Shown here: piece by piece, positions 16,899 through 54,900 of the stretch | Layout of the letters: each line of letters opens with the position of its first letter | Numbering within the stretch: position 1 is the first letter of the stretch | From: Paraescarpia echinospica | Lineage: Eukaryota; Annelida; Polychaeta; Sabellida; Siboglinidae | Reading direction: 5' to 3' | DNA: 64,000 nucleotides | NCBI GenBank assembly: GCA_020002185.1 | Contig: CM034531.1 | Span: forward strand, 81,673,360 to 81,737,359 | The notes under the pieces: model-generated | Told to the model about the DNA's origin: nothing | Seen by the model: the letters and a program-made list of their open reading frames with translations, nothing else | The model's database searches: none | Position numbers and translations under genes: made by a program

Positions 16899-16901
16899 TG
16901 T

Positions 16902-16970
16902 TTGAGCATACTCGCTCCCTGCTTCATCGCCATTGTCCGCAAAGACATCCGACACAAGAAGGGTATCAAC
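16902..16970 (+). CDS. PLAC8-like gene, copy B: first coding exon, 3' half after the LINE
   Basis: This stretch encodes LSILAPCFIAIVRKDIRH and then KKGIN. Read directly after the Cys codon at 15700-15702 it completes a PLAC8 domain core (PCF, basic RxxIRxKxGI). The next exon at 17625 follows in phase 0 as GIN-GSFIND. The exon end is followed by gcacgt where copy A has gtacgt, so the donor here is GC or dead. The gene therefore has a split exon and a doubtful donor and is probably a pseudogene. Confidence 0.7.
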
Positions 16971-27813: not shown

Positions 27814-27923
27814 ATGGTTGCCGTGGCAACCGAGCAGTCTGGCTGGCAACAGTTGTTTCACACACTTAGTAACAAGTCTGCAACGGATCCAGAGAGAATT
27901 GTCATTTATCAGAAACTTGGCAG
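27814..27923 (+). CDS. RIF1: RIF1 exon 1 (residues 1-37)
   Basis: Starts at ATG 27814 (MVAVATEQSGWQQLFHTL). An upstream ATG at 27785 is in another frame and leads nowhere. A good acceptor (tctttcacgcttcag) ends at 27802, so a 5' UTR exon probably lies further left and this exon begins at 27803. Donor gtatgt, phase 2. Confidence 0.8.
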
Positions 27924-30900
27924 GTATGTTACATGTGTATTGCAAGCAGGGTTCGCACAGGTCCCCGAAAGTCTTGAATGTTCTTGGATTTGATTTTTTT
28001 GTTCGAGTACCCTCGAATGTTATTGAATTTTACTGGATGTTCTTGAATCAGATTTTCATGGACATTCAAGCACATTACTGACGAGTTGTCAACGAAATAA
28101 TTGTAATAATATTGTGTCGAACCCGTCAGTAATTTTTGTCATAAAATTGGTTATTAAAATTTCTGACAATTTTGCAAAAACAACATGGGGGAAGATGAAA
28201 ATTAGCGGTAACACGATTCAATAGATAGTGCCACATGAAATAGCAGTATGCATTATCGCAGACCTGCCTACCATTCCGCATTGTCTGGAATAATTCCGGA
28301 AATACACCTAAAATTACGGTATTACGATGAGGGATGAAAATATTACGAATTCTTTTGTTGTCACAATGAGCGTCAATCAATTCCGTACTCCTCAAATTTA
28401 GCTTCACTTTAATCAACAGGTGGCAGCATATATACGTTGCTTGTTGTGACATGGTTTTTCATTCGCTGCTTCTGGTCGTAATCTGGCCAATATGAAACAG
28501 CATTACGACAAATTCGCATTTCCGTGCTCAGGCGCTCAAACAAAACGAAGTCACGACTCACGCGGCCCGAAATGATGCCGGGGAATGAAACAGCACCACT
28601 ACCAGCCAAGAAGAAACGTGTACTGCAAACGTGTATAACAGCATGCACGCAGACATGGCCCGCTTTGTCAAGTTTAAAGAAGGGGGTTGGCTTTAGATAT
28701 TGCCAGATACACAAAATTTATTTTCCTATTTCACATGGTCACTGGTGACCGGGATAATTGCAGGTACTGACTACGTAATTAGACTAGTACTAGTGACAGA
28801 GTAGTGGGAGTTGTACTTGTAGTGTTAGGCCAACTGACTGTACTATGACTAAGTTAGTGTATTTATTGAGTTTAGTCTATCATTTACAGCCTATAACGAT
28901 GTCGATGACTAGCGTAACGTAACGGTTTTGACGTCCCTCGGCATGACTGTCTTTGATCTAGTCAAGCTACTATACTGTGTAGTCTATAGCCTGGCCCTAG
29001 GTATACCGGCTACTAATATTAATCCTAATCATAGGCTAATGACATCACAAATAGACAATGACGTGATGCATTGTTATAATTTGGCAAGTTTTTGTAGTCA
29101 GCATTTGAAATTTACATAAAATCAGAATTACAATATGGATACACTCATTTATATTACAGTTTCGCTTCTTCACGTTTGATTTCCATCAATGCTGCTTATG
29201 AACATCTACCTTACCTTGTTAACTGAACACTTCAAAACACCTCATAGTTTATTAGAGACAATTATGTTTTGGGTGCAACTATCATCATAGTCACAGTATC
29301 AAAGTATTACTGACAGTGGTGTTCTTTTCATGACAATATCTGACACGGTTCTGAACTATTACTGACAGCAAGCCTATATTCCTGAAAATCAGTGTAAATG
29401 GGAAGATGGATTACTGACAGGAAGTTTTTATGGTAGGCAGGTCTGTAATCACTAGATGTCGCCATCTAAACGCGTGAACCAATCAGATGCGCTCTTTCTC
29501 CATGTGTGCGGTCACTCGCCAACGTCCATATTGTTTATTTTAAATTTTGTTTCCATCATGTGTTCTTCAGTTTATGATTGACAATCGCCATACCTTGAGT
29601 TATGGATGACAGTTGATTCAGAGATGAGTGGTTACTGGATGGTGGTTATAAAAAATTGGGTTGTGAATATGATTGCCGTGACATTCAGATGTAAGTGCGA
29701 TGCAAGGAATGATACCAAAATAATGTGGACATCGGCTCTCAATCGTCATCACACACGCAGGCATTGCAAGCCTAAGGCAAATATAAAATGTCAGAAATCG
29801 AATGAAGGAAGAAAGCACCAGAAGAAATGTATTAGATTGACAATATATGAATAGTATTTTACTCCCCGGAGGAGAAACTTGTGGACACTGCTAATAATTT
29901 AATCAAGTTAAGTAAAAGATTGCTTTTTAAAGCATATAATTAAAGGCCAGGCCTAGGGTAAGGCAAAGCAGAAGACAACATTTTGAAAAATGAATATCAC
30001 ATCTTGGACTTGCCAAGACTGACTTGCATAGGCAATATCTCAGACTCACTGGGAAATTATGTGCACAGTTAGCCTAATGAGAATCTTAGTGAAAACATGA
30101 CACACTAAGCATCATTGCCATTGTCATGATTGTGAAAAGCAATTTTATTAGAGTTTAATAGTCTTCTGTGAGAATCTTCTAATCAAAACTTGTCATAAAA
30201 ACACCTATACACAATTACAAAAAAAGTAAATTCATAATAAAAAGGAGTGACACCGACTTACATCTAGTGGAAATGACATTAAATATTATATAAATATATA
30301 AATTATATAAATACTTTAACCGTTACGCTACCCACACTCGTCAACATTGTAAATGCGTCACTAAACACAGGAGTGTTTCCTGGTGAACTGAAAATTGCCC
30401 TAGTGACACCGTTACTGAAGAAAGCCTCACTTGACCAGAACGAACTGGAGAACTATCGTCCCATCTCCAACCTCGCTTTCATAGGAAAGTTGATCGAGCA
30501 AGTCGTCCTCAAATGCCTGAATCTGCACATGGCAACGAATAAGCTGCATGATGAAATGCAGTCGGCTTATAGACAACATCATTCTACAGTAACGGCTCTG
30601 ATGAAAGTACAACACGACATCGTGCGCAACCTTGACTCGGGACGTTGTGTCATGCTGGTTCTTCTTGACACGAGTGCAGCATTCGACACGATCAACCTTG
30701 ACAAATTGTTGAACACTCTGGTTTCACGATTCAACATCGGCGGTATGGCACTTGACTGGTTTAGATCATACTTGACCGGCAGATTTCAATGTGTGACAAT
30801 TGGTTCGTCTTCTTCGAACGCAATCCCCATCTACCACGGTGTACCTCAGGGTTCAGTACTTGGACCAGTGATGTTCAACACATATACGACACCCATTGCT

Positions 30901-33900
30901 GACATCTGCAAGAAACATCATATGCTTTACCACCGATTCGCCGATGACATCCAGCTATATGTCAGCTATAACCCTATGGTGTCTGGAAAACGCTAAACAG
31001 CTGCTCATCCAGTGCATCGCCGAGATTAGAGATCAACTTAAACTCAACAATGACAAAACTGAGTTTATCGTGCTGCAGTCACCGCACAATCTACGTGTTT
31101 ATGGCAGCCCCAGCTTGGAACTACCTGGACTTACCTTGCAATCAACAGATGCAGCCAGAAATCTAGGCTGCTACTTCGACCGACACATGCAGTTAGACCA
31201 CCTCGTCTCCAGCTACTGTTCTTCGGCCTACTACCATCTATGCCTGATCGGCAGAATTCGTCACCTGCTGACGCGAGACGCGTGCCATGCTGCAGTACGC
31301 TGTCTTGTGCTAAGTCGCCTCGACTACTGCAATGCTCTACTCGGTGGATTGAACAATGGACAGACCAACAGACTTCAACGAGCACAGAACTCAGCCGCTC
31401 GCCTCATCAACTGCGTCAGACGGCGAGATAACATCACACCAATTCTGCAATCACTGCATTGGCTGCCGATCAGAATGAGAATTACTTTCAAGATATGTAC
31501 TTACATATTTAAGATCCTGCATGGCTTAGCCCCGAACTATCTCAACTGTGCGATAGCTCGCAACACGCCCACACATGCATTGCGACCGGCGAGTGACGCA
31601 ACGCTTCTCGTGGTGACGGTGTCTAAGAGAACTGTCAGACGGGGCAGCTTTGCAGTGACAGGTCCACATATGTGGAATAGCTTGCCAAAGTGTATGCGAT
31701 CAGTTGGAACATTGGCGGCTTTCCGGAAACAACGTAAAACCCATCTATTTCGCCTGCACTACATGCCTTGATGCAAGCACTGCTGCCACATCTAAATGAC
31801 ACTGGTTTCTATTTGATAGTATTGATTGGTTTTTAATTTCATTGTTTGAAATTGTATTTTTACACCCTAATTTATTTATTTTTATTTCTGTATTTATATA
31901 TATATATATCTTTCTTTTATTTATTTGTTTATTTATTTATTTTTTTAATATTTATTTATTATTATTTTATCTTAGCTTTATTTATTTAATTAATTTATAT
32001 TTTAGCATTTAGTGAACACGTCATTTTAGTATGTGAAGCGCTTTGATTAGTATTTACTTACTTAAAAAGCGCTATATATTAAAAAACTGAATTATTATTA
32101 TAAGTATTGAACTTTTTTTTATAACACTAGAAAATGTTAATGAAAAGTCCTACTTTTTCCCCCAAAAAAGTTCTTGAATTTGACTTTGCTCATTCTGTAT
32201 GAACCCTGATTGCAAGTGTACTGCTGCAGGAACAACTACAGTCTCTAGGATTGTTTGTATGGTCTCTAGGACCATCTGTACGGTCTCTAGGACCATCTGT
32301 ACAGTCTGAACGACTGCCTAGAGCTACGGTCTCTAGGACCACCTAGAGCTGCGGTCTAGGACCGCACAGAGCTACAGTCTCTAGGATTGCCTAGAGCTAC
32401 AGTCTCTAGGACCGTCTATAGCTATGGTTTCTAGGACCATATAGAGCTACGGTCTCTAGGATTGCCCTTATGGTCTCATAAAATTCGATTTTGGCATAAC
32501 AAAATATTCCACTGACAAATATCACCATTTGTCATTTAGCAAACAAATGATTAAACATTATTATAACAAATGCGAGACCATTTGGCAATTTCAAGTCACT
32601 TAGCAAACTTACAAAAATAAAGAAAGAAACAGTTGTGATCCCAAACTAGGGATACAATTTATGCCTTTGTGCTCAGCACACAAAATGGTTTAAACATTTC
32701 AATTAATGCATAATCCTATGTCTTACTTTCATTGGTAATTGTTTTAAAAGGCTATGTCAATGTTAGACACATTTGTGTTACTAGGTAAATCTGAATTGTT
32801 TTTGTGGCAGTTTTATATTTTGTGTTATTTCAATTTTTTTGTGTTAATTATACAACATTTTTTTAACTGTGTTACAGCGAGCTTTGTGAAGTCCCTTCAG
32901 ATTGTTCCCTCGATGACATTCAAGATGATTTTACAAACACTGTGGCAGTAATATGTGGCGACATCAAGTGTGAGGATGAAGAACTAGCTCTGTGTGCGCT
33001 TTACGCAATGGGGCTCTGTCTACATCACCAACATATGGTGAGGTAGGTCACATGTGCAACTTGTAGGTAGGTAGATCACCTACACGTCTGTTTGTTTCCA
33101 CAAATCCTCTCATCTTACTAAATCACAGCACATTTCTATGTCAGTTCCTTCTGATTAGTTCCAGCGTTTTTCAATTACATTTTCCTCCATTACTGATTCT
33201 GTGTCATAGCTGTATCCACACCACTATCTCGCATTTACCATGCCCCCATAGATGTTGCGTTCACCATGCCCCCATAGATGTTGCATTCATCATCCCCCAT
33301 AGATGTCGCGTTCACCATCCCCCCATAGATGTCGCATTCATCATCCCCCATAGATGTCGTGTTCACCATCCCCTCATAGATGTCGCGTTCACCATACCCC
33401 ATAGATGTCGCGTTCACCATCCCCCCATAGATGTCGCGTTCACCACTTGCAACCACCCTTCACTTCCTTCAGTCCTATAATCGTCGTGGTTCCCTCCACT
33501 CCCAAATCATCCGCTCTCTCCATTGGCAGTTCCTGTCCATTCCATAGCTCTAATCCAGTTTATAACATGAATGTTCCAGCTTGATTGTATCTTCCTGTGT
33601 GTTGCAGTTTGTTGGGGAAAGACCAAATATCAGGTCTGTTGCGGGCTCTTTGTGACGTAGTCATGAAAACAACAAACAAGAACATCTGCACCAGAGCCCT
33701 CTGGTGTTTCGCCAAACAGAACCTTCCCGTGGAGGCCATAGAGGCTGAGGTAGGTACTGCACCTGTATGTCGATGTTGCATCAACTGTATTTGTCATGCT
33801 GCAGTGTCTATTGTTGCACATGGTTAGGGTCAGTTGGGGCTAGGCCTGGCAATAAGTATTTGAAAAAATCTCGTTTATTTTTCCATAAGAAGAAAAATAT

Positions 33901-36900
33901 GATATGTGTGCATTTGTGTGTGTGTTATATAATCAAACAGTAATGCCAAGCAATGGTCTACTTATAGTAGATGTAGAAATGCAGAAGTATGTTTTTGAAC
34001 AAGATCAATTGACCATACTTCAGTGGGGTGGGGGGTTGTAAGTGTATTCCCACACAACGTGCTTGGACTTATTTAGCTTCCATTTATATGATTACTAGGT
34101 GAGTTACCCCACGTTGCCTAGGGAAAAAAGGCAGTCATATACATCCTCAAATCATTTGCACTGAAATCTATAAAAAAAAGTATTGTTGACATAATTATGT
34201 ACATTAAAAATAGACCAAACCTCAAATGCCCAACCTTTGAGTTCCAAACATCCAAAACCCATCCCAAATGCTTCCAGCTTACCCACATTAATAATTGTAA
34301 CTGGTCATTGGCCTAGTTGTTAGGACAACCTTTTGCCAGAAATCGCACGCGCTCACCCGTGTAACTGACGTAACCAGCAACAGGCAGCTGGGTTATGCGT
34401 CCAGGATTTTGTAACGTTAATAACAAAACTAATACATTTGTTTGCATACACCCAGTGACACCTGTACAATGATACAGAAAACCATAAAATTCCATGGCTG
34501 GAACTCCACGGAATTGTTGCAGTGTGTTGTTTGCCAGACGTAGCACGCGCTCACGGAGTTGACTGGGCGAAATGCTTACATGACCAGCGACAGTTAGACC
34601 TGGTGCATGTTAAGCGCTGAAGATTTTCAAACATCAATAACTTAAAAAACGATTCAAAATTTCTGCATACATCCAGCGACATATTTGTAGATGACATAAT
34701 TGTCTTTACGATGGTATAGGACAACATTAAATTCCACTGCTGGAACTCCACGTACAGCCTTTTGAAATATTGAGCCCACGAGTTCTCCATCTCCCGGACG
34801 ACGAATTTTCGAAAATGTATAAATCTACGAACCATCTCAATGGGCCCGGTAGATCACATGGGAAAATTTCAGCCCGATATATGCAAAACTGATGGAGATG
34901 TGGGTGCACTGAACTGTTTTATAATGTAGATGTTGATAGAAATTACCCGTGTATGTATGTTGCAGCTCCCCGGCATACTGTCGACCATCGAACATGGTCA
35001 GTGTCGCAAGAACCTGCAGTCAATGACAGTTGAACATGAAGCTCTCAACGCCATCATCAGGTAAGTACACATATGTGCCGCAGTTATGTGGTCTTTGACA
35101 GCTTTGATAGGACAGAGAAACTGTTATGCAATGCATTGTGGGCTAATGATGACAATACTCGTTTTTAATGCACATTGTTTAGTAAGTATTAATTCAGTAA
35201 CTAATGACTATTTGTTTGTATTAGTTCTGGCATGATTATTATGAATTGATTTATACAAACAGCTATTATTTATTGATACTTTCTAAGCATTTGTCTTTCA
35301 AGTTTGATTGTTCAAGTTTGTTGATGTTAATTTTGTAATTTAGAAGTTTGACTTTGGTATGGTAGTGACTTTAGACGCAAGTTATTATCTCGTATTTCTG
35401 TAGAACTGACAAAACAAACATTTTGTCAAATGTCCTTTCAAACAGGATACAGGGTGAATAATAATAGAGAAAAGGCAATGCATTGGCTGATTGCATTTTG
35501 AATAACAACTGCAAAGGAAAAACAAAGCTATCCTTGTTCAGCCTTAAGGGGAGACACGGCAGTCTGAAATACGTCAATAATTATTTTTATGAAATTTTTT
35601 GTTTCAGTTTTTGACAGATTGACATATCTACTTCACAATAAAGATCGTTTTTTAACAGTTACTCACCGCTAAGTCATTATATTAGCACTAACTTAGATGG
35701 CCCATCAAATGTGAAATGACAATAAATATTTGAATCGATGAAACACGCCAAAAGTAATCCAAGTTTATGCCTTGACAACGACCACGTTTGTTCATGATAC
35801 GCCATTTTGTTTGGTATCAAAAGAACGGCCGTCTTCTTGGCTATCTGTCAGTTATGTTGATAGTCACACCCCTTTTCTCCAAAGTTGAGTTTTCCCGCGT
35901 TGAAACTGAGTCCAAATTTCCGATGATCTCCTTATTTAGCACATAATTATGCAAATGAGACATGGAACTGGCTGAAAGCCTCACATTCGTGGTTTTATGA
36001 CGCGTTTTTTCTCAAAATGAGGCACGGAACTGGCCGAAAGCAAGTTCAAGGATCACTCAATTGGTTTTATGACACGTCTTCGTTCAAAACGAGGCAAATC
36101 AATCCCACGATGCTTTACGTTGTCTACTTGCCTGTTTACATTGTTGCTACGGAGAACAGTTTGACACTCGATAAACGGACGATATATTTTGTTAAAAAGA
36201 GAGTTTAAATGAGATGCCGCCAAAGAAATCAAAAGTTATACGCAAGCGCCTGAGTGAGTGCAATGCTGCGACACTGCGATTGACACTGACAGCGCCAGGA
36301 AGATCGCAACAGCTGACGCCGGAGCGACTGCACAGCTACCAGGAACGGCCCAGGCAACACCGTGTCGCACTAGTCGTCTCGTCATGCAAAATTATCACCA
36401 TGAACGCCGTTAATTAAATGTGACAACCCTGACGAACAGAGGGAACTGAGCAGTCGAGATTGGTGTATTGTCGATGTTGGTCAACTCATTGAAGTGGTCG
36501 CTGATGTCTCCTACCTTGCCTGTCACCGAGTTGGTGCACTGTCAGTGGTGAAAGATGAACTGCAGCCGATGGGATTTGCTGAATCACTCCATCTTCAGTG
36601 CCCACACTGCCCATAAACTGGCAGTTGTGTGTATTCTTCGCCTCGCCTGCATGATCCCAACAAGCAGAATGTTGTCTTCGAGATCAACACAGTCATGACA
36701 ATGCTGACCCACGAGGCATTACAGACGATGCAGAAGGTGCTGGGTGTCAACAATATGCATCTCAAGACATTCCAGCGACACAACCACACATCCCAGCAGG
36801 CGTGCCAGTCAGTTGTGACAACAGTTTGGACACTGCTGCCGACGTGATCCGTGGGGTGTATGGGGACATGATGGACGATGCCGGGGTCATTGATTTGACC

Positions 36901-39900
36901 GTGAGCTATGACGGCACATGGCAGAAACGAGGATTTACGTCCCATCACGTTGTCGGTGTCGTCATCGAGGTCCAGACCGGACTTGTGATAGACTATGAGG
37001 TCATCTCCAACTACTGCCATGAGAACCAATTCGGCGTGAGTTCAGCAGCACTGCAAGCCTGGCAAGCTGCACATACTGGATGCGATCGAAACTTCGACGG
37101 CTCTTCGAAGGCGATGGAAGCTGAGGCAGCCAGGCGGATCTGGAGTCGCTCCATGCAGACGTACTCGTTTTGCTACTCACAGATCCTGAGTGACGGCGAC
37201 TCGAGTACGTTTGCTGCTCTGACACAATTGGAGCCCTATGAGCCAAACCACACCATTGCCAAGCTCGACTGTCTTAACCATGCTGAGAAGAGAATGGGTA
37301 CGGCACTATGGAAGGCTGCCAAATCGGCAAAGTTAGGTGGCCGTGGTGTTGGCCGTCTAACTTCACTGAAATCTACGAAGCTGCAGACTTACTACGGCCG
37401 TGCACTTCAAGGCAATGTAGGAAATGCAGTTGCAACAAAGCAGGCTGTGTGGGCAACACTGTTCCATCGATGTCCACCAACGATGACCCACACCACCAGA
37501 GATGCCCACATGGACAGGACAGTTGGTGTGTTTTTAACAAGTCCGTAGCTCTGGGACTGCCGATGCCATTGCACGATGCCAGTACTGTGGGCACACTGCT
37601 CGACCGTGATGTGGCCCAGGAACTCATCCCCATCTACCAGCGAATGACTGATGACAATCTGTTGGTGCGCATGACGACTGGTGGCACACAGAATGCGAAC
37701 GAGAGCCTGAACAGCCTAATCTGGCTGTACTGCCCAAAGACACAGTTTGTGGCTCACCGGAAAGTAGTCAGTGCGGTGCAGTCGGCTGTGTGTCGCTTCA
37801 ATGGTGGTGCCACTGCTACCACTGAAAGAATGCGGTGTTTATGCATTGAGAGCCTACTGAGATGCAGTTGGCCTGCACGGTGAAGACTGACCAGTGCAGG
37901 GTGTAGAGTGCAATGCGGGCAGCGGATGACAATGTCAAGATTGTTCGCAAGAATCGCCAGATAGCACAGAAGCGGGCAATGATGTTGTGTTATATATAGC
38001 AAATGTTTCAGAGTTAGTGATGATTGACTGACATGTCAAACATGTGATGATTGTGTATGGACACACTGCTGTTGCATTTGTAAAAGCCTCGGTGAAGTGG
38101 TGCTTAGGTTGATAATTATCATAAAACCTATTTCTACACATGCAAGTTTGAAGCAAGCAAGTCTATGGAGTGCTACATGCAATTATTATTCATGTTTCAT
38201 GTAGGTCACAAGTCACAACCTGTGCAGAGTGGGAAACTGTCCGAATTCTTGCTTCAGCTATGATTCCTGGCATTATAATGTGTGGGGTGGCAGTGGGGGG
38301 GAGGTGAAAATTTTATAATGATGTCACATTTAATGGACTATTAATCCTATAAATGTTTATGTATATTACATCTTTATCTAACATGCATTTCAGAGTTGAA
38401 GAAAACAGGCTGACATGTCACGACTGTATGTGGATACATACAAGCTGCATTTGTAAAAGTGAAGTGATGCTTACTTAGGAAAATACCTCTCTGATCTCAT
38501 AATCAGGTTTCTTTGCATGATAACCAATGCATATGGACTGTTACATGCTATCAGTATGCATGTTTTATGTTGAACACAAGTCACAATGTATGCAATGTGG
38601 ATTATATGTGAAAACTGTCAGAATTGGTGCGTCGACCATGATTACTCGCATTATGAATTAGGGGGGTAGAGGTAAACAATGACATAATTGTGTCACTGTT
38701 AATGAAATGTTTCACTTAGAAACACTCACATATTGTACATACATGGTAAGCCTACCATACTGATGCTTATTTGCAACATCTAGTATGTGCAAGACATTAA
38801 AATTACTTTGTTCATACTTTGAGTGCCGTTTTCTCAGTTATCACTTTTTTGTAGGAAAAATTAATCGAACTCCAAAACTAACCAAGCAATTCATACAAAC
38901 TTTTTACACAGTAATAATGACAACTATCTACATTCCTGTGCATTGAAATTATGATCAGTCATTTGGATTATATCCCATAGGGGTTTGAATGTGAAAATGT
39001 TGAAGAAAAAATTAAAATAAAAAATAATTCAAAAAAAATCTGAATAACATACAATTGGCTATACACAGAAAGTTAGAATAGTTCATTATCTAAATAAAAA
39101 CATTTGAATTGCATAAATTAGTATAGGGGTTTCACTGTTCTATTCATTTAAACTTTTGCTGTTTTATGACTTATTTTTTCGATTAAAACCCCCTAGCGCA
39201 CTTAAATATTAGAAAACAAAAATTTAAATCATGAAATATCCTTAGTTTTAGTACAGTAACTTCATACAATACCTAGTTGGTGAAATTTATCAGCTTTAAT
39301 TTTTTTTCGTGTCCTGTGATCCCTTAAATGAAATTATCTCCAATAACCAATCTTGTCTTTCAGGTTGTTGGAAGTCGTTCCTGTCCCCATGGCTAACCAC
39401 ACTGGGGTATGGGCAAAGCTAATTTACCCCCTCCTTGTTCATGGTGCCCACAAAGTACGTGACCGGGCCATGGTTGCCGTGGAGATGGGGTTATCAGCCA
39501 TGATGCAACATCAGGCGGAATTCAGCAAAAATCTGGAAGACGATTTGAAAACGGTAATCATGGTTCTGTTTAGAAGAAACAATCGAGTCCCTGTAAAGCG
39601 CTCATTAAAGAGACACATCAAATTGAGAAGACACTGTGAATTCACTGGCTGCACTTGTAGGCTGAAGAATGCAGGCAGTCTCTGGTTGCAATGTAATATA
39701 ATTATTTAATAGTTGTCATTGGTTTAACTTATCATCACATACGCCTGTTGTACTCCACTTTCAATACACCACTACATTGAGCTTAACTGCCAATATATTA
39801 AAAACTACTTCAAACTCAGTAAAGGAAATAAATATAAATCTGCATGGAAATCGTGTCCATATGTCTTACAAAACGATTGAAGGTTATTTACTAAATTCTA

Positions 39901-42900
39901 CCACAAGATCTGATTAGTTGCCGCTAACGTGTCATAATCAGTTAACCGTTGCACTAATGTTATATCCACAGTCTCCCTTCCCGTGGCCACCCATTCACAC
40001 AGTTTAGGAGATGTTCCTCATAAACCTATACAATCTTAACTTTCTAGAAGGAAAAACTACTGGTTGTTCATAGTGATGGTGACATTTGATGATGGTCACT
40101 AGCCAATATGTTCGTGTGGGGTCCAAGGCAGTTTAAAGTTATGTCAGAGTTCATGTTTTGACGATGCTAAACAGTCTAACCTTCATCCAGAAAATAAAAC
40201 ATTTCTGTCTCTTCAGCTGCTGATTGGAGAGCTCCACAAGTTGATGTCGGCGGGAGAAGAGAGCTACGCCCTCAGGGTGTGGGGCGTATACATCAAACTC
40301 CTCGGAAAGGTGTGTCTTGCGTGATGTCATGGTGTAGCCACCTTATCTGTTCCCAGAATCACCCCCTCGTAATAGTATTGGCAGGAGGTTTGCTGGATCA
40401 AGTCTACTTTAGCCCACTTACTGTCATGTTGGGGGAACCAGGCCACACACTCAACATCAAAGAGCAATTCCTGGAACTGGCAGTTTGAATATTTCGCATA
40501 CAACTGGAGTGTTCCATGAGTGAAATGTTCAAGTTATGAACATCGCTGTGAGCTCATCGGACACAGTTTGGCCTTCACTGTATTTATGCGTGATTTTTGT
40601 ATTAGTAATTATTAATAAATGACGAACAATCTAAGTTGGTTTTATAAATAGTGTTGTGCTCATAACAGTTTATCCTCATGTTTGGAGAAGGTTAATTTAA
40701 CACATTCGGTGATTTACATATTTGAAAATAATGAAGATAAAATGTGAGTGAACAATCAGATCCACATTTGTTTATCATTAATCCCCTCTTGCTGTGTTTT
40801 CAGACTCTACATCGTAGCCCCCTCATCAACCTTCGCTTGCTGTATCCTTTCAAACCCTACATCGTAGCCCCCTCATCAACCTCCGCTTGCTGTATGCTTT
40901 CAGACCCTACATCGGAGCCCCCTCATCAACCTCCGCTTGCTGTATGTTTTCAGACCCTACATCGTAGCCCCCTCATCAACCCCCGCTTGCCGTATGTTTT
41001 CAAACCCTACATCGGAGCTCCCTCATCAACCCCCTTTTGCTGTGTGTTTTCAAACCCTACATCGTAGCCCCTTCATCAACTCCCTCTTGCTGTATGTTTT
41101 CAAACCCTACATCGGAGCTCCCTCATCAACCCCCGCTTGCTGTATGTTTCAAACCCTACATCAGAGCTCCCTCATCAACCCCCTTTTGCGTTGTGTTTTC
41201 AAACCCTACATCGTAGCCCCCTCATCAACTCCCTCTTGCTGTATGTTTTCAGACCCTACATTGTAGCCCCCTCATCAACCTCCGCTTGCTGTATGCTTTC
41301 AGACCCTACATCGTAGCCCCCTCATCAACCTCCGCTTGCTGTATGCTTTCAGAACCTACATCGTAGCTCCCTCATCAACTCCCTCTTGCTGTATGTTTTC
41401 AAACCCTACATTGTAGCCCCCTCATCAACCTCCGCTTGCTGTATGCTTTCAGACCCTACATCGTAGCCCCCTCATCCACCTCCGCTTGCTGTATGCTTTC
41501 AGACCCTACATTGTAGCCCCCTCATCAACTCCCTCTTGCTGTATGCTTTCAGACCCTACATCGGAGCTCCCTCATCAACTCCCTTTTGCTGTGTTTTCAG
41601 ACCCTATATCGGAGCCCCCTCATTAACCCCCTCTTGCTGTATGTTTTCAAACCCTACATCAGCGCCCCCTCATCAACCCCCTCTTGCTGTATGTTTTCAA
41701 ACCCTACATCAGCGCTCCCTCATCAACCCCCTCTTGCTGTATGTTTTCAGACCCTACATCGGAGCCCCCTCATCAACCCCCTCTTGCTGTATGTTTTCAG
41801 ACCCTACATCGTAACCCCCTCATCAACACCCTCTTGCTGTATGTTTTCAGACCCTACATCGGAGCCCCCTCATCAACCCCCGCTTGCTGTATGTTTTCAA
41901 ACCCTACATCGGAGCTCCCTCATCAACCCCTGCTTGCTGTGTGTTTTGAAACCCTACATCGTAGCCCCCTCATCAACTCCCTCTTGCTGTATGCTTTCAG
42001 ACCCTACATCGGAGCCCCCTCATCAACCCCCTCTTGCTGTATGTTTTTAAACCCTACATCGGAGCTCCCTCATCAACTCCCTTTTGCTGTGTTTTCAGAC
42101 CCTATATTGGAGCCCCCTCATTAACCCCCTCTTGCTGTATGTTTTCAAACCCTACATCAGCGCCCCCTCATCAACCCCCTCTTGCTGTATGTTTTGAGAC
42201 CCTACATCGGAGCCCCCTCATCAACCCCCTCTTGCTGTATGTTTTCAGACCCTACATTGTAGCCCCCTCATCAACCCCCTCTTGCTGTATGTTTTAAGAC
42301 CCTATATCGGAGCCCCCTCATTAACCCCCTCTTGCTGTATGTTTTCAAACCCTACATCAGAGCCCCCTGATCAACCCCCTCTTGCTGTATGTTTTCAGAC
42401 CCTACATCGTAGCCCCCTCATCAACCCCATCTTGCTGTATGTTTTCAAACCCTACATCGGAGCTCCCTCATCAACCCCGTTTTGCTGTGTTTTGAGAGCC
42501 TATATCGGAGCCCCCTCATTAACCCCCTCTTGCTGTATGTTTTCAAACCCTACATCAGAGCCCCCTCATCAACCCCCTCTTGCTGTATGTTTTCAAACCC
42601 TACATTGTAGCCCCCTCATCAACTCCCTCTTGCTGTATGCTTTCAGACCCTACATCGGAGCCCCCTCATCAACCCCCGCTTGCTGTATGTTTTTAAACCC
42701 TACATCGGAGCTCCCTCATCAACCCCGTTTTGCTGTGTTGTCAGATCCTATATCGGAGCCCCCTCATTAACCCTCTCTCGCTGTATGTTTTCAAACCTTA
42801 CATCAGAGCCCCCTCATCAACCCCCTCTTGCTGTATGTTTTCAAACCCTACATCGGAGCCCCCTCATCAACCCCCTCTTGCTGTATGTTTTCAGACCCTA

Positions 42901-45900
42901 TGCCGGAGTCCCCTCATCAACCCCCTCTTGCTGTATGTTTTCAGACCCTACATCGGAGCTCCCTCATCAACCCCCTCTTGCTGTATGTTTTCAGACCCAA
43001 TGCCGGAGCCCCCTCATCAACCCCCTCTTGCTGTATGTTTTCAGACCCTACGCAGGAGCCCCCTCATCAACCCCCTCTTGCTGTATGTTTTCAGACTCTA
43101 CATCGGAGCCCCCTCATCAACCCCCTCCTGCGTATACCCCAGCAGGGGTTCCGTCACTCCAGCTCTAGTGTCAAATGCACCACCTTTGGCGCATGGAAGA
43201 CGCTCATTGACAACTTCGCTTTGAGTCCTGGTAATTATTTCTTGCATTTTAAATATTTTGTTGGATGTTTTTTACTACCTAAAGATTTTGATTTCACATA
43301 TAATAACAAAGTAATTTGAATAAGCTTTCCAAGAATCTGACACAAACATTTTGTGACCTGAGTTGTGAGACATTTTGAAACTGGGTGTCTTACTCTGACA
43401 ACAAGATACAGTGCAACACACTTATAATGAACTACTTTTTGGGTAGCTAATGAGTTCGTTATATCTGTGATTTCGTTATATCCGTGTACGTGTTTACCCG
43501 CTAGGTGGCAGTATTGTATGTGAGTTTTTAAACTATTCGCCAGGTGTCTATCAAATGCAAATATATTTTGTAGTGTAACATTTATTTAGATGACATAAAA
43601 CTGTTACAAATGTTACTATTAAGTGTAGTTATAGTATGACATAGCAGTCCACCGTCTGTGAAGAAGTAACGAAATATAACATGGTGAGCATGCTGCATCC
43701 AAGCACACTAAAACGCGAACTGTGGCAGGATGGAGCCACGGTAACTAGTACTACTTCTTGTACAACACACAGAATGACACCAATTAATCTGCTTTGAAGA
43801 AGTTCTCCATTGTTGTTTGTTTGCTGTTGGCTAGGGCACCAGACAACAGGAACTCCTTAAGCCAGTTGCAGTGCGGTACAGCATCGTTTGACTGCGTAGC
43901 CCTGTTACGGATGAACTGTCGTATAACGCGCTGCTAGCAATCACCTTTGATGTTTTTCCTCATTGACTTAACACACACAGAATGACACCAGTTAATCTGT
44001 TTGGAGAAGTCCTGGCTGCGTAGCCCTGTTACGAATGATTTCCCTCATTGACCTAATTACTTTGGTACTGGTGCGTTGAGCGGCCACGGCATGGCTTCCA
44101 GGTCACGGGGGGAGTATTTACGAACAACCGAGCGATTTTCAGTTGGACAGAACTTCGTTATACGATAAAAGGTGTTCGTAATAACCGTGGATTCGTTATA
44201 CCCGTGTTCATAATATGCGTGAATGCTTATAATGGAAAAGATGTTCACATTTTGTTGTACCATGTCATCCATCATCATTCTGGTCTTTCTGTAGGCTCTG
44301 CCACTGTTACATAGTTTGGGAATGTCCACTGGTACAAAAGACCCATTCTTGTGAAAGACCCATCCACTGCGGGTTCAGTCCAAGTGCGTATTTCTGCAGC
44401 AGTTTTATATTTAGTTTATTTCTGAGACACTGCATCAGGTGTCATCGTTATTGACCGTGTATTGGAGATGATAGAGCCACCTTGCAGGTGATTCTGTGTG
44501 AGTGCAGCGTGCTGTCTGCGCCGTGTGTATCGTGTTTTACTTGTTTGCAGACATCATCGGTGACCACAGCCGAGTGAAACTCATCATGCAGGTGTTTGCG
44601 AGACTCAACGCAAAAGACGAGTCCTTGGCTATGGCAAAGATCGATGCCTGGTGGCATTTTCTGTCAAAACTCGGCACTAAACTGCCACTATACTTTGAAC
44701 AGGTTCGTACTTTCTCATCAAATAAGCCAAAACTACGACTTGACGTTCACATAGAAACCAAAAACAAAAGGTTTGGCATTTCTAAATTGGCTAGAATTTG
44801 TTTTTTTTAACTTTACACTTTCATTTTGTTATTGATTTCAAAAGAATAAACCAGAAAGATGCTCCCTGGCATAAACTGTTTCTGGTTTATTCTTTTGAAA
44901 TCAATAACAAAATGAAAGTGTAAAGTTAAAAAAATCAAATTCTAGCCAATTTAGAATTGTAAATTTCTGTTACAGTGACTAGCCAGACGTGGTCACATGA
45001 TAAAATCTGGTAAATCAAAGAAGTCGGAAAAAAAAAAATTTGTGTACCACTTTTAATTGTTGTTAGTGCATACTTTTGAAACATCTTATATTTACACAAT
45101 ACAGTGTTCCCAGATGTTGATATTGTCTTCACAGGTTTGTGTGCCGTTGCTGCAGTTTTGCACAGGAGGGGTAGTCAATTCTGTGGGGTTCACACCTGCA
45201 AAATCAGGGGCAAGAACTCCGACGCACAATAAATTGGGTGAGACATTATTCTACTTTATGAGATTCTCACTTGATGCACAAACATTCGGTAGTATTGGAT
45301 GTCTTCAAACCTATCCAATTTAAAAAAGACATTGTTGTTTTTTATTTTACACAAAGTGAATGCTGAAGGAATTTATATTTTGTATTAATGAATTGTTACC
45401 TGATCAATAATCCTGTAAAAGATGTAAAAAACATTATATTTATCTTCCTGAACATTTATGTTGTTTATTGTTTTGTCACTAGACAGAGGAGGCTTTGGAA
45501 GCCCAGGTACTCCCCAGATGAATCTCACCGCAAACCCGGGTTCATCCGTTTCCACATTCCCCATGATACAGAGGAAGGGGTTCGAAGTGATTGCTCACTT
45601 CCTGGGCACCCCGGCCAAAGACATTGACACCCCAACCCCTCCACTCAGTCTAGGTGAGGGACAGTCTCTGCCTTCAGCCTGAAATTTAGAAACTCTACAT
45701 ATATATGTAAATACACAGTCATTTTGTGATGATAAATGTGTATATGTAAGTAAAAAAATCGCTGTAAACTGATGCGACTATGCGTTAAGCAACTAGAACT
45801 ACAGCTGTTGTTTGTGGTTTCAGGTGCGCTGAAGCAGTGTGTCATCACAGGCGTACCGTTCTTTGTGAAACACGCGTCAGTTCTCATCGCTGCCGTCAGG

Positions 45901-48900
45901 GGGAGCATCGTGTCCCAGGGAGACAAGGTCGCAGGTAAACAGGGGTTGGCTGAAAGAAGCAACAATTTCAAGGTTCAGTGTGCTCCTGTAAAGAATTGTC
46001 AGTGTATTGGATAGATAAAACCACACATTTCGAGGTATTGTTAGTCTCATTGCTTTTATTTTCAAATCATGTTATATCATAAAAACTCGTCTAACATCTT
46101 AACACCCAAGTGTGTCTTAAAATGATCTGCTTGTTTCAAATGTTGTTGACTGTTAACTTTTTTGAATGTTGTTGAACAGAATGTTTATATTTTATAACTA
46201 AGATTAAACTTGTAAATCCTCTCTAAGAAATTGTTGGTTTATGGTTGAGTGGTAGTTAGGACAAAAACATTATAATTAAATTTGTTGAGTTTAAGGGAAA
46301 CTGAGTTGAGAAGAAGTGAAGCTGTGTACGTTGTCCTGTTTCTGTGCAGATGGTCTGCTGTACTCTATCTGGTATGCGTTGGTGGCCCACGTTAAGAATG
46401 TACTCGACACAGCAGCAAAGAGGGATGGCGTTGATGTATTCGTCTGCTTCCTCAAGAATCTCCGTCAAATAGTTCACAGTGACACCCTCGCGGCAGACAA
46501 AATTCTTGTAAGTTTTCATCAGCTTCACCCGAAAATGTTATTTAAAAAACATTGGTCAGTGATATAGGGTATATGATACAAGAATATGAGACATTAACAT
46601 TGGTCAGTGATATACGGTATATGATACAAGAATATGAGACATTAACATTGGTCAGTGATATACGGTATATGATACAAGAATATGAGACATTAACATTGGT
46701 CAGTGATATACGGTATATGATACAAGAATATGAGACATTAACATTGGTCAGTGATATGCGGTATATGATACAAGAATATGAGACATTAACATTGGTCAGT
46801 GATATACGATATACGATACAAGAATATGAGACATTAACATTGGTCCGTGATATAGGGTATACGATACAAGAATATGAGACATTAACATTGGTCAGTGATA
46901 TGCGGTTTATGATACAAGAATATGAGACATTAACATTGGTCAGTGCTATGCGGTATATGATACAAGAATATGAGACATTAACATTGGTCAGTGATATGCG
47001 GTATATGATACAAGAATATGAGACATTAACATTGGTCAGTGATATACGGTATACGATACAAGAATATGAGACATTAACATTGGTCCGTGATATAGGGTAT
47101 ACGATACAAGAATATGAGACATTAACATTGGTCAGTGATATGCGGTTTATGATACAAGAATATGAGACATTAACATTGGTCAGTGCTATGCGGTATATGA
47201 TACAAGAATATGAGACATTAACATTGGTCAGTGATATGCGGTATATGATACAAGAATATGAGACATTAACATTGGTCAGTGATATGCGGTATATGATACA
47301 AGAATATGAGACATTAACATTGGTCAGTGATATACGGTATATGATACAAGAATATGAGACATTAACATTGGTCAGTGATATGCGGTATATGATACAAGAA
47401 TATGAGACATTAACATTGGTCAGTGATATACGGTATATGATACAAGAATATGAGACATTAACATTGGTCAGTGATATAGGGTATATGATACAAGAATATG
47501 AGACATTAACATTGGTCAGTGATATGCGGTATATGATACAAGAATATGAGACATTAACATTGGTCAGTGATATGCGGTATATGATACAAGAATATGAGAC
47601 ATTAACATTGGTCAGTGATATACGGTATATGATACAAGAATATGAGACATTAACATTGGTCAGTGATATACGGTATATGATACAAGAATATGAGACATTA
47701 ACATTGGTCAGTGATATGCGGTATATGATACAAGAATATGAGACATTAACATTGGTCAGTGATATGCGGTATATGATACAAGAATATGAGACATTAACAT
47801 TGGTCAGTGATATGCGGTATATGATACAAGAATATGAGACATTAACATTGGTCAGTGATATACGGTATATGATACAAGAATATGAGACATTAACATGGCA
47901 TAATTGTACGAAACTGTGGCAGAATACCAGAAATAATTGGACATGAAAATTCAAAGTTGTACATTTACCTGCTGTATTGTACGTGATGTCATAATTAATC
48001 ATTTTATTATCGCATATTTTGTAAACAGTAACCACAGCATAATGTAAACAAATAGTTTCAGTGCAGTTGGATTGAAATAAATGTTTTTGTTTCCTAGAAA
48101 CTACTCCAAGCTGTACTTTGCCTTCCGGCCCGAACTCTTGTTTCTGCTGCGTACTCGACAGGTGGCACCACTGAAGTCATGCAGGTGACTCCGGAGATTT
48201 CCTAGTTTTCCTCGTAATTAGTTTCTATTAATGGACTGTTGCGCAAAGCGCAAAGTATTAGTGCAATAATAGACTGGTTATAGTTTTCTTCTGTCTGAGA
48301 AATATATAAAATACTGGTACATTATATTTTGTACAATCAGACATTGGTTATGTTATATAATACTTTATCAATTCTATGGTGCCCCAGAAAGGACACAAAA
48401 ACTCAAGACAACCTGTTTAATTTTTGAAGATTCTATTTCAGTAATGATGGTAACTTTTTGTAAAACCAGGTAAAATGAGTGAAATTGATATCAAGTTGCA
48501 GTATTTGTAAACACCGTGGTTGTTGACAGAACTGCCCGGCTCTTGTTCTTATGGACCTGTTGCTTCACCGCAGTATCGTCGACTCCAACTCCTCCCATCA
48601 GAGGTCAGTACTGGTTTTGTTGAAAATACATGTTTGCTATCGGTTGATTGTTGAGTCCTTGCGGAACACTGATTTCGGGACTTAATTGTTCCTAGTTCTG
48701 CAAGAAATTCAAATTAGTGTGTCTTGTGGTTTTGAATATTACATATAGCATTATGGAGGGCGAATACCACGAATTCAAGGGAATGAAGCCTTACATTTTT
48801 TAGGTTTTTAAAATCCATTTTACCCCGAAAGACAAAGTCTTGGTAAAAATGGGGTTTACTATCATTTTTTAATGGCTTCTCTCATTCCAATAAACACATT

Positions 48901-51900
48901 AAATGCAAATAATTGTTTTGTGTATTTAGGGTAGCCGTTGGTCCTAAAGTAACTATGGGCCATATCTTGGTGAAAACTCATCTTCATAAAATTTAAGTAT
49001 TACATTTATCAGTTTAACAAGATTTAACAAGATTGCCACCCAGAGAATTAACTCTAGGTGGCAGGTGGACAAGGAAGCCTTTGGCTTATCGAGAGTCCAA
49101 CCCTTTTATCTATGTTTATCCCACCCTTCTGAGGTATGTGTCGATTTTATTTTTAAAATTCACGCTACTAGCACCCACACAATCAGCAGATAATCTGTTC
49201 CATTCATTTACAGTCCTTTATGAAAATGAAAACTTTCTTATATATAATCTACACTACTCCTTTGCTAATGTAACTTCATGTCCTCTAGTCCTTCTATCTT
49301 TCTTAACTGAGAAAAACATATTTCTGTCAATATTTTCATAACCATTTATTATTTTAAACACTTCTATCTGATCTCCTCTCAATCTCCTGGTCTCTAGTGT
49401 TGTTTAGTGAAGGTTGTTGAACATGTGAAAAATCTGCTAATTTGCAGAACTGTTGCCATGGCAACAACGATTTATGTGCCTGTGGATGTATGCCCCCATG
49501 AGAAAAATTATTCAGAGTAAGCGATAGCAAATCCCATCATAACATTGCAATAAGTTGTTTGTTGGAATGTTACTTTGTGCAATAAGGTGGTTTTGGGATC
49601 TGACTTCAAGTGTTCTATGACCATAGTGAATTGCACCGTTGAGATGAAGATTAAAAAAGTCCCTAATTGTTTGACCCTTGTTTAAAAACCCTTAAAATAA
49701 ATATGTGACATCAAAGTAGCTCATTGCACCTGGAACATTACAAAGAATAACTGGTAAAAAAATTCAATTCTCTGGTGTAGTTTTTTTCGAAATATTTTTT
49801 GCCAGTGTCACAGATGGTCAAAAATATTGTTTTCAGAAAAGGCTAAAACAAAATAAGAACATTAAGCAGAACGGGCAGATATACATAATCTAATCATAGG
49901 TATTTGTAATAAGAATCTTGAAAAATGCAATGTATTGGGAATGCATAACATGTTAAAAAAGATGAAATCCCAAAATGAAAAAAAATATATAATTTAAGAC
50001 CAGCGGCTACCCTTAACATATTAATATATAATGGTGAGAAAATATCAGTATGTTGGCTGTGCATATTGTATAATTTATAATCCTAACGATACAATTACAC
50101 ATTGTCACAAACCATGACTTAGTCGACTTAGCACTTACTATAAAGTGCGCTGGTTGATTACTTTTGTATAGTAGTCACCTTAAGAGGAATTATAATCAGT
50201 TGGAATGAAAGGAAATCTAACTAAAGCTTTCCCACAGCAGTGTGAGATGACATTTACAAAGAGAAACATTTTGAAAGAAACTTGATATTCGTTCTGAACA
50301 TGTGTCTGCCAAATATTTAGGCCGACTTGTTCAGCCTTTGTTTACCGACACATTTCAAGAAACCGGAATGACAATCCATTCAACGATTAGAGCAATTTCA
50401 GGTTTTTCAATCTGCTCGAGAAACTGATTTCCTGCGGCTTCAGTCACGGCTGTAGTGCACTTGACTTCAGCCAGGTGGCCCTGCAACTTATTGATAGAGC
50501 TGCGTCGTATTCACAGAACAAGGACGCCCTCTGGCAGATGTGGGCAGCGATCGTCCAACCAGTGAAGGAACACATTACCAAGGTGTGTGTGGTGGTGTCT
50601 ATGCATATGGGGGTGTGTATGTGTGTGGGGGTGGGGGTGTGTATGTGTGGGGTGTGTATTTGTGTGTATATATGTACTGATGTGTGTGGGGTGTGTATGT
50701 GTGTGGGGGTGTGTATGTGTAGATCCAAACATTCAGGGATTCCTATACAGTACGAGGAAACCTGATTATTACCCTTTCTAGGAAAAATCCAAGTATAATT
50801 GTTCAGGTCACATCATCTGTCCCCAACTGATCCGTGGAGGGTTGACGTTGCTTGGAACAACATCATCTGTCCCCAACTGATCCGTGGAGGGTTGACGTTG
50901 CTTGGAACAACATCATCTGTCCCCAACTGATCCGTGGAGGGTTGACGTTTGGAACAACATCATCTGTCCCCAACTGATCCGTGGAGGGTTGACGTTGTTT
51001 GGAACAACATCATCTGTCCCCAACTGATCCGTGGAGGGTTGACGTTGTTTGGAACAACATCACCTGTCTCCAACTGATCCGTGGATGGTTGACGTTGCTT
51101 GGAACACCATCATCTGTCCCCAACTGATCCGTGGAGGGTTGACGTTGTTTGGAACAACATCATCTGTCCCCAACTGATCCGTGGAGGGTTGACGTTGTTT
51201 AGAACATCATCTGTCTCCAACTGATCCGTGGTGGGTTGACGTTGTTTGGAACAACATCATCTGTCCCCAACTGATCCGTGGATGGTTGACGTTGTTTAGA
51301 ACATCGTCTGTCCCCAACTGATCCTTGGAGGGTTGACGTTGTTTGGAACAACATCATCTGTCCCCAACTGATCCGTGGATGGTTGACGTTTTTTAGAACA
51401 TCGTCTGTCCCCAACTGATCCTTAGAGGGTTGACGTTGTTTGGAACAACATCATCTGTCCCCAACTGATCCGTGGATGGTTGACGTTGTTTAGAACATCG
51501 TCTGTCCCCAACTGATCCTTGGAGGGTTGACGTTGTTTCGAACAACATCATCTGTCTCCAACTGATCCGTGGTGGGTTGACGTTGTTTGGAACAACATCA
51601 TCTGTCCCCAACTGATCCGTGGAGGGTTGACGTTGTTTGGAACAACATCATCTGTCTCCAACTGATCCGTGGAGGGTTGACGTTGTTTGGAACAACATCA
51701 TCTGTCCCCAACTGATCCGTGGAGGGTTGACGTTGTTTGGAACAACATCATCTGTCCCCAACTGATCCGTGGAGGGTTGACGTTGTTTGGAACAACACCA
51801 TCTGTCCCCAACTGATCCGTGGAGGGTTGACGTTGGTTGGAACAACATCATCTGTCTCCAACTGATCCGGGGAGGGTTGACGTTGGTTGGAACAACATCA

Positions 51901-54900
51901 TCTGTCTCCAACTGATCCGTGGAGGGTTGATTTTGCTTGGAACAACATCATCTGTCTCCAACTGATCCGTAGAGGGTTGATGTTGCTTGGAACAATATCG
52001 TCTGTCTCCAACTGATCCGTGGAGGGTTGATGTTGCTTGGAACAATATCGTCTGTCTCCAACTGATCCGTGGAGGGTTGATGTTGCTTGGAACAACATCA
52101 TCTGTCTCCAACTGATCCGTGGTGGGTTGACGTTGGTTGGAACAACATCGTCCGTCTCCAGCTGATCCGTGGAGGGTTGATGTTGCTTGGAACAATATCG
52201 TCTGTCTCCAACTGATCCGTGGAGGGTTGACGTTGTTTGGAACAACATCATCTGTCTCCAACTGATCCGTGGTGGGTTGACGTTGGTTGGAACAACATCG
52301 TCCGTCTCCAACTGATCCGTGGAGGGTTGAAGTTGCTTGGAACAATATCGTCTGTCTCCAACTGATCCGTGGAGGGTTGACGTTGCTTGGAACAACATCA
52401 TCTGTCTCCAACTGATCCGTAGAGGGATGGTGTTGCTTGGAACAACATCATCTGTCTCCAACTGATCCGTAGAGTGTTGGTGTTGCTTGGAACAACATCA
52501 TCTGTCTCCAACTGATCCGTAGAGGGTTGATGTTACTTGGAACAACATCATCTTTCTCCAACTGATCCGTGGAGGGTTGATGTTGCTTGGAACAATATCG
52601 TCTGTCTCCAACTGATCCGTGGAGGGTTGATTTTGCTTGGAACAACATCGTCTGTCTCCAACTGATCCGTGGTGGGTTGACGTTGGTTGGAACAACATCG
52701 TCCGTCTCCAACTGATCCGTGGAGGGTTGACGTTGCTTGGAACAACATCATCTGTCTCCAACTGATCCGTGGATGTAGAGGGTTGACGTTGGTTGGAACA
52801 ACATCATCTGTCTCCAACTGATCCGTGGACGTAGAGGGTTGACGTTGGTTGGAACAACATTGTCCGTCTCCAATTGATCCGGGGAGGGTTGACGTTGTTT
52901 GGAACAACATCATCTGTCCCCAACTGATCCGTGGAGGGTTGACGTTGTTTGGAACAACATCATCTGTCCCCAACTGATCCGTGGAGGGTTGACGTTGTTT
53001 GGAACAACACCATCTGTCCCCAACTGATCCGTGGAGGGTTGACGTTGGTTGGAACAACATCATCTGTCTCCAACTGATCCGTGGAGGGTTGACGTTGGTT
53101 GGAACAACATCATCTGTGTCCAACTGATCCGTGGAGGGTTGATTTTGCTTGGAACAACATCATCTGTCTCCAACTGATCCGTAGAGGGTTGATGTTGCTT
53201 GGAACAATATCGTCTGTCTCCAACTGATCCGTGGAGGGTTGATTTTGCTTGGAACAACATCATCTGTCTCCAACTGACCCGTAGAGGGTTGATGTTGCTT
53301 GGAACAATATCGTCTGTCTCCAACTGATCCGTGGAGGGTTGATGTTGCTTGGAACAATATCGTCTGTCTCCAACTGATCCGTGGAGGGTTGATGTTGCTT
53401 GGAACAACATCATCTGTCTCCAACTGATCCGTGGTGGGTTGACGTTGGTTGGAACAACATCGTCCGTCTCCAACTGATCCGTGGAGGGTTGATGTTGCTT
53501 GGAACAATATCGTCTGTCTCCAACTGATCCGTGAAGGGTTGACGTTGTTTGGAACAACATCATCTGTCTCCAACTGATCCGTGGTGGGTTGACGTTGGTT
53601 GGAACAACATCGTCCGTCTCCAACTGATCCGTGGAGGGTTGAAGTTGCTTGGAACAATATCGTCTGTCTCCAACTGATCCGTGGAGGGTTGACGTTGCTT
53701 GGAACAACATCATCTGTCTCCAACTGATCCGTAGAGCGTTGGTGTTGCTTGGAACAATATCATCTGTCTCCAACTGATCCGTAGAGTGTTGGTGTTGCTT
53801 GGAACAACATCATCTGTCTCCAATTTATCCGTAGAGGGTTGATGTTACTTGGAACAACATCATCTTTCTCCAACTGATCCGTGGAGGGTTGATGTTGCTT
53901 GGAACAATATCGTCTGTCTCCAACTGATCCGTGGAGGGTTGATTTTGCTTGGAACAACATCGTCTGTCTCCAACTGATCCGTGGTGGGTTGACGTTGGTT
54001 GGAACAACATCGTCCGTCTCCAACTGATCCGTGGAGGGTTGACGTTGCTTGGAACAACATCATCTGTCTCCAACTGATCCGTGGACGTAGAGGGTTGACG
54101 TTGGTTGGAACAACATTGTCCGTCTCCAATTGATCCGGGGAGGGTTGACGTTGCTTGGAACAACATCATCTGTCTCCAACTAATCCGTGGAGGGTTGATG
54201 TTGCTTGGAACAACATCATCTGTCTCCAACTGATCCGTAGAGGGTTGATGTTGCTTGGAACAACATCATCTGTCTCCAACTGATCCGTAGAGGGTTGATG
54301 TTGCTTGGAACAATCAGAACGCACACAGTTCTTTGAACTACTATTCAGATTTGTATAATCTTTCCCAAACATCCACTATAAATACTTTGTACAAGAGTTG
54401 TCTGTGTATGAATTCCTTTCTAGCACAAAATATTGACCTAAGGACTTGGTTGCTTGGTTTCTGACATAACTATGAAGATCATGTTTAACCACTTTTGAAC
54501 TACTAAGTACTCCTGACCAGAGAGTTCCAGTAGTTTGTAGAAGTAACTTTGTTGTTTGTAGACGAGTGATGTGAATCAAGGGGACCTGGTGGAGCACAAC
54601 TTCAGCTGCCTCTATGTTGATGTAACTTTGTTATTTGTAAACAAGTGATGTGAATCAAGGGGACCTGCTGGAGCACAACTTCAGCTGCCCCTATGTAGAA
54701 GTAACTTTGTTGTTTGTAGACGAGTGATGTGAATCAAGGGGACCTGGTGGAGCACAACTTCAGCTGCCGCTATGTTGATGTAACTTTGTTGTTTGTAAAC
54801 GAGTGATGTGAATCAAAAGGACCTGCTTGAGCACAACTTCAGCTGCCTCTGTTGATGTAACTTTGTTGTTTGTAAACGAGTGATGTGAATCAAAGGGACC

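Follow-up and report, generated by a model that had tools for sequence, protein, structure and literature searches.

Minisatellites whose repeat unit runs across an exon-intron boundary, termed mirages, have been described in amphioxus, in Adh3, in the globin genes BflGb6 and BflGb9 (3-6 units) and, by citation, at other loci (PMC3087553), and they are also described in lancelet PGBD5 and, by citation, in troponin C (PMC3902484). The globin paper terms the mechanism of their birth unclear (PMC3087553). Here we analysed 64,000 nucleotides of the siboglinid annelid Paraescarpia echinospica (assembly GCA_020002185.1, contig CM034531.1, positions 81,673,360 to 81,737,359 of the forward strand; hereafter the window, with coordinates counted from its first letter), which contain exons 1-25 of the gene RIF1. 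Three acceptors of this gene, those of exons 7, 16 and 30 (the last beyond the window), are preceded by tandem arrays built from their own intron end and exon start. Judged from the sequence, these arrays are likely to be mirage minisatellites, which would have arisen by in-place duplications over an acceptor and would be mostly inert, the last copy being the one spliced.

Tandem acceptor copies before three exons of RIF1

RIF1 lies on the + strand, and its exons 1-25 occupy 27814..63011 from the ATG exon (exon 1, 27814-27923) to the last exon found in the window. Together they give 3338 nt without a stop, and each coding exon is flanked by AG before and GT after; when 60 kb of downstream sequence is added, the model has 31 exons and 2409 codons, still without a stop, and the gene thus reaches at least exon 31. 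The protein of exons 2-25 matches Pfam Rif1_N (4.2e-52) and is 39% identical to RIF1 of Pinctada, 37% to that of Saccoglossus and 35% to that of a fish. We compared it with the best 120 of 663 homologs found (the listed homologs below), of which the named ones are mostly fish; no close relative is among them, the top identity being the 39% of Pinctada.

Exon 6 (40217..40309, + strand) lies in one open frame and ends in a GT donor, which after 40309 faces the first array. This array (array 1; 40775..43094, + strand) consists, by Tandem Repeats Finder (TRF) and unit alignment, of a partial copy and 46 full units of 50 bp, each made of 37 nt in register with the start of exon 7 and 13 nt of intron end, and its final unit meets exon 7 (43095-43230, + strand; 136 nt, phase 0) at 43095. 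TRF itself reports 40775-43135 with a period of 50, 47.5 copies and 88% matches. An earlier note, made from the letters alone, had proposed 47 tandem boundary copies with this 37 + 13 nt unit, running up to 43095 before exon 7 of RIF1, which TRF, the unit alignment and Pfam all uphold; its exon number is correct when the ATG exon is counted as exon 1, and its repeat start, 40804, is to be replaced by the measured 40775.

The full units of array 1 have a mean pairwise identity of 88%, and 39 of the 46 are distinct. Most are 50 nt long (41 units), with four of 48 and one of 49, and they differ by substitutions and 2-nt deletions. This variety bears on whether the arrays are an artefact of assembly: tandem arrays are difficult to assemble, yet the units differ among themselves, three different arrays occur in one gene, the window sits in a 96.7-Mb scaffold, and the 1.08-Gb assembly has a single RIF1 locus. 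We therefore regard an artefact as extremely unlikely, although the copy number given by the assembly could still be off. The assembly comprises 14 scaffolds of 55-97 Mb, and the other scaffolds whose length was inspected are of 10-103 kb.

When the real site is included, array 1 has 47 acceptor positions, of which 27 keep the AG (24 TCAG, 2 TGAG and 1 TAAG) and 20 have lost it. The dozens of near-identical acceptors proposed in the earlier note are thus dozens indeed, but with 20 copies broken they are not near-identical. TCAG is retained by each of the four decoys closest to exon 7. With a matrix built from the 22 other acceptors of RIF1, which is small and crude, the real site scores 5.9, a value that 15 of the 26 AG decoys equal or exceed; the highest score, 10.1, belongs to the first copy, the four nearest decoys have 5.5, and all 26 score at or above the weakest of the 22 genuine acceptors of the gene (leave-one-out). 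The local acceptor score therefore does not single out the real exon 7 site. A branch-point-like yTnAy motif is present in 46/46 units; in the final unit it precedes the AG by 28 nt.

Two additional cases in the same gene extend the earlier claim, which concerned exon 7. Array 2 (54536..57152, + strand; TRF and unit alignment) directly precedes exon 16 (57153..57257, + strand; 105 nt), and its 79-bp unit combines about 54 nt of exon start with 25 nt of intron end. It has 33 full units and, with the real one, 34 acceptor positions, of which four have AG. Column 19 of the unit is A in 28 of the 33 full units, which replaces Gly by Arg in an NQGD motif; this Gly is present in 120/120 listed homologs and in the real exon 16. 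Array 3 precedes exon 30, 12-14 kb beyond the window (locus L010, 1845-4249; gene model); exon 30 would start at 78250 in the window's count. Its 45-bp unit holds about 16 nt of exon and 29 nt of intron, AG is kept at 53 of 54 acceptor positions, and 13 of the 53 decoys score at or above the real acceptor with a 27-acceptor matrix.

All three arrays are thus on the acceptor side, their unit spans intron end and exon start (37 + 13, about 54 + 25 and about 16 + 29 nt), and their terminal copy is the real exon boundary. In arrays 1 and 2 the interior is homogenised with the edges excluded, and the unit comes from the host locus and not from a dispersed repeat. The introns upstream of exons 7, 16 and 30 measure 2785, 6570 and 2766 nt, the exons 136, 105 and 75 nt, and the introns downstream 1320, 352 and 232 nt. 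Each of the three exons (starting at 43095, 57153 and L010 4250) has AC as its first letters.

Choice of acceptor and the reading frame

At the exon 7 junction 120/120 listed homologs run across, with one residue more in 119 and none extra in one, and at the exon 16 junction 120/120 align without a gap. Since the homologs are continuous over both junctions, the last acceptor is the one that yields the conserved product. For exons 7 and 16 this acceptor is placed by the gene model together with the homologs, and for exon 30 by the gene model only. Protein conservation and the open frame imply that the last acceptor of each array would be the one used.

The decoys fare differently in the frame computation. 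The RIF1 frame is kept by 1/26 AG decoys of array 1, 0/3 of array 2 and 0/52 of array 3, and the 25 others of array 1 would lead to a premature stop. The single frame-keeping decoy has its AG at 42943-42944, in front of the last three units (42945..43094, + strand), and would add 150 nt. This acceptor, three units up with both AG and frame retained, is what speaks for a coding repeat, by which upstream acceptors would give longer RIF1 isoforms with 50-residue repeats. We consider such isoforms highly improbable, as it is the only one of its kind, 120/120 listed homologs have no such insertion, and the 28 array-2 units with Arg would replace a Gly found in all of them. As a set of productive alternative acceptors, for which the frame would be kept upstream, none of the three arrays qualifies.

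The true exon is preserved since the whole exon and its donor follow the 3'-most copy alone. Most likely the spliceosome would choose this copy by exon definition, i.e., by its nearness to the downstream donor, and the upstream copies would be mostly inert intron sequence. Human data, as given in PMC9225289, show a preference, where the flanking introns are long, for the splice sites that lie nearest across the exon. The earlier note held that exon choice must depend on position or on subtle differences between copies. The first part is plausible, since the last acceptor alone borders on the full exon with its donor and 15/26 AG decoys score as high or higher; differences at the acceptor itself find no support, the four nearest decoys being TCAG with scores of 5.5 against 5.9. 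Each array can in this sense be regarded as a natural experiment on splice-site choice, with dozens of acceptors of known differences, one donor and one right answer.

Fate of the decoy acceptors

The upstream acceptors might nevertheless not be inert. They could bind splicing factors or sometimes be used, giving stop-bearing transcripts, so that array length would tune RIF1 output. The three arrays together hold 81 AG-bearing decoys (26, 3 and 52), those of array 1 all reach at least the score of the weakest genuine acceptor, every array-1 unit has its yTnAy motif, and nearly every mis-choice would lead to a premature stop; moreover, alternative splicing from exon-intron boundary minisatellites is described in human duplicated genes (PMC2812944). 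However, AG has been lost at 20/47 positions of array 1 and at 30/34 of array 2, and the amphioxus Adh3 and globin mirages are reported as harmless to regular splicing (PMC3087553). On balance, functional or leaky decoys appear distinctly unlikely. A bolder version, in which mirages arose independently in lophotrochozoans and expanded to about 50 acceptor copies, and the 81 decoys serve as length-variable splicing decoys on which RIF1 output depends, is in our view very unlikely; if it were true, repeat instability would feed back on a replication-timing and repair gene.

The loss of AG can also be considered from the opposite side, namely that intact copies mis-splice and selection disarms them, units with a broken AG spreading in the arrays. 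This would be compatible with the arrays being mostly inert mirages. In array 2 no column has changed more than the last intron G (rank 1/79), and this G ranks 3/50 in array 1, where the two columns above it differ at the edges only; in array 1 it also has the most parsimony steps of the 50 columns (12; next 7), and it lies outside any CpG. The step counts are not independent events, because units are copied, and steps accrue more readily where a column is at intermediate frequency. In array 2 the loss takes just three steps, resembling one linked sweep, the four decoys nearest exon 7 are all intact, and array 3 keeps AG in 53/54 positions, with the last intron G constant in the 52 units compared. 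We thus find it unlikely that selection has disarmed the decoys, and as a general rule selection against them, which fits arrays 1 and 2, is overturned by array 3. The contrast in acceptor decay between the arrays (27/47, 4/34 and 53/54 intact) offers a ready test of whether a decoy has a cost.

Origin of the arrays

Short patterns of arrays 1 and 2 were searched in the 1.08-Gb assembly, and 19/19 and 9/9 matches fall inside their own arrays, with none for the reversed controls. As the patterns occur nowhere else in the assembly, the two arrays appear to have been born in place, and the mirages would have begun as local tandem duplications that by chance spanned a splice acceptor and later expanded.

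For array 1 a more specific origin can be proposed. The sequence TCATTAATCCCCTCTTGC at its beginning (40775..40792, + strand), on the intron side, and TCATCAACCCCCTCCTGC in exon 7 (43114..43131, + strand) form the two halves of an imperfect direct repeat of 18 bp, with 15/18 positions identical. This identity is reached by 0/22 other acceptors and 0/462 cross pairs, the highest value elsewhere being 14. The interior units have the exon state at column 27 (46/46) and at column 24 (41/46) and the intron state at column 34 (46/46), and being exon-like left and intron-like right of the 18-bp repeat they fit a crossover within it. Array 1 thus probably arose by misalignment at this repeat, common to intron end and exon start, with its birth point at 40775..40792; the two halves would have misaligned in replication or recombination, duplicating the 50 bp between them. 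The hybrid units would provide a concrete birth mechanism for mirages.

Unequal exchange or slippage would then have amplified the units and partly homogenised them. An older state is kept at both edges: within array 1 ACTCTA is confined to the first full unit, and it recurs in the real exon 7, the other 45 units having C at the third position; in array 2 the edges differ from most of the interior in AG and in column 19.

Repeats elsewhere in the gene and genome

In the simplest view the arrays would be a tolerated by-product of a genome in which minisatellites turn over rapidly. Within the window, 31% of the RIF1 stretch is taken up by seven minisatellite arrays, and tandem copies are found at 2/24 acceptors and 0/25 donors of the first 25 exons. 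Because arrays are so dense at this locus, three or more copies also surround 63 of 200 random centres placed in 28-63 kb. Within the window, 0.48 junction-straddling arrays are expected by chance and two are seen (P 0.086). Intron 15 also contains an ordinary minisatellite with 70 copies of a 50-bp unit (50810..54313, + strand; TRF), shortly before array 2 begins.

Two further arrays were observed in RIF1 introns. That of intron 12 (46548-47896) has 28 copies of a 48-bp unit with 97% matches, and, its period being a multiple of three, both of its strands carry an open frame, of 466 and 544 codons from stop to stop. That of intron 24 (61561-62061) has 11 copies of a 45-bp unit containing an acceptor-like TTTACAG, and no exon match was seen in it. 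Tandem repeats are also found in the coding sequence of the large exon 27 (L009 6618-9905), with about four copies of 39 bp and about five of 36 bp.

Outside RIF1 our survey covered 30 exon loci from 76 myosin matches and 30 from 128 kinesin matches, 60 in all and with some near-duplicates among them. An array with a period of at least 20 lies within 40 bp of the match at four of the 60 (L050, L053, L066 and L067). The kinesin locus L053 (1700-2763) has a clear donor-side mirage, with a 66-bp unit of about 53 nt of exon end and 13 nt of intron start, and GT is kept at 16/16 donor positions. Another kinesin gene, L050 (492-1512), has a probable donor-side mirage, whose unit includes about 15 nt of exon end. 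At L066, by our own reading, the array halts within the intron.

Several points weigh against tolerated, mostly inert arrays with exon definition selecting the last copy. Over the longer gene, 0.60 junction-straddling arrays are expected and three are seen (P about 0.023, like the value for the window a post hoc and weak result), and with junction-ending arrays somewhat commoner than chance the by-product view may be incomplete. Regarding origin, the likeness of the two 18-bp halves could partly result from the array instead of preceding it, and the birth point of array 2, as read from the sequences, has just a few shared bases. As for splicing, the short introns downstream of exons 16 and 30 (352 and 232 nt) are a poorer fit to exon definition; the only yTnAy in the last unit of array 2 stands 71 nt from the AG, as compared with 20 nt in array 3. 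In the human data of PMC9225289, which may not carry over to this animal, 3' sites under exon definition show a reduced upstream preference and not a plain reversal. In addition, boundary minisatellites of human duplicated genes are reported to change splicing, a second transcript form being given for 66% of cases (PMC2812944).

Other elements in the window and genome

No Rfam match in the window reaches the gathering score, and no tRNA is present. A sequence search against solved structures gave no match at E 0.001, and an 11-row tree of RIF1 has long branches and does not resolve the relationships. The assembly has no match to the COX1 family. The GFP and molluscan haemocyanin families gave no match in searches whose controls gave none either, and a myosin exon is about equally similar to muscle chains of vertebrates and of invertebrates.

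Upstream of RIF1, a long interspersed nuclear element (LINE) at 11122-14675 carries two long open reading frames, of 456 and 737 codons from stop to stop. Among the best 120 of 927 relatives listed for the second frame, which are 60-87% identical, 119 are unnamed and one is named as a bacterial metagenome bin. Further LINE-like frames are found at 2961-4079, 15875-17131 (minus strand) and 30283-31771. Intron 4 of RIF1 contains two overlapping open frames (36655-37883), which we take to be transposase-like.

Elsewhere in the same genome (G000), a Hox cluster at C3:41985280-42522051 has nine homeodomain matches, and six of the nine genes were read. Their homeodomains include ones closely followed by IQAIKELN, KQQIKDLN and KLTGP, presumably signatures of the UbdA type (Lox4 and Lox2) and of Lox5, which are typical for lophotrochozoans. 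These motifs place the genome at the level of Lophotrochozoa and set it apart from amphioxus. No separate Antp-type gene is among the six genes read.

Comparison with known systems

The human and nematode cases are the more distant ones. In C. elegans, as described in PMC4039745, an intronic minisatellite is tied to alternative splicing and not to boundaries. In human segmentally duplicated genes a minisatellite lies at the exon-intron boundary, as in RIF1, and can alter splicing (PMC2812944); these repeats have on average four units of 30 bp and are described as forming novel introns within exons, whereas our model of RIF1 needs no new intron and leaves the real exon intact. The model of Rogers, cited in PMC3087553, explains intron gain by duplication of a segment bearing AG/GT, and shares with RIF1 the duplication across a splice signal; in RIF1 no new intron or exon is evident.

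The likeness to the amphioxus mirages, suggested in the earlier note, is borne out by a unit that combines intron end and exon start. In amphioxus both donor-side and acceptor-side mirages are known (PMC3087553; PMC3902484). The repeats of lancelet PGBD5 (60 and 108 bp) overlap exon ends and include splice sites, and their copy numbers differ between assemblies (2 or 7 and 3 or 6); the authors deem them real and harmless to splicing (PMC3902484). RIF1 differs in scale, with 47, 34 and 54 acceptor positions against the 3-6 units described for amphioxus BflGb6, and in unit length, 45-79 bp as compared with 150-160 bp in the amphioxus globins and 10-72 bp in Adh3 (PMC3087553). It also differs from the amphioxus cases in its lophotrochozoan host and in having three arrays in one gene. 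We found no report of mirages in molluscs, annelids or their kin in a literature search that reached mainly open-licence papers, which does not prove their absence. The arrays of RIF1 are thus a known kind, the mirage, in a new phylum and on a larger scale than the amphioxus cases described in PMC3087553 and PMC3902484, with three in one gene and a donor-side case elsewhere in the genome.

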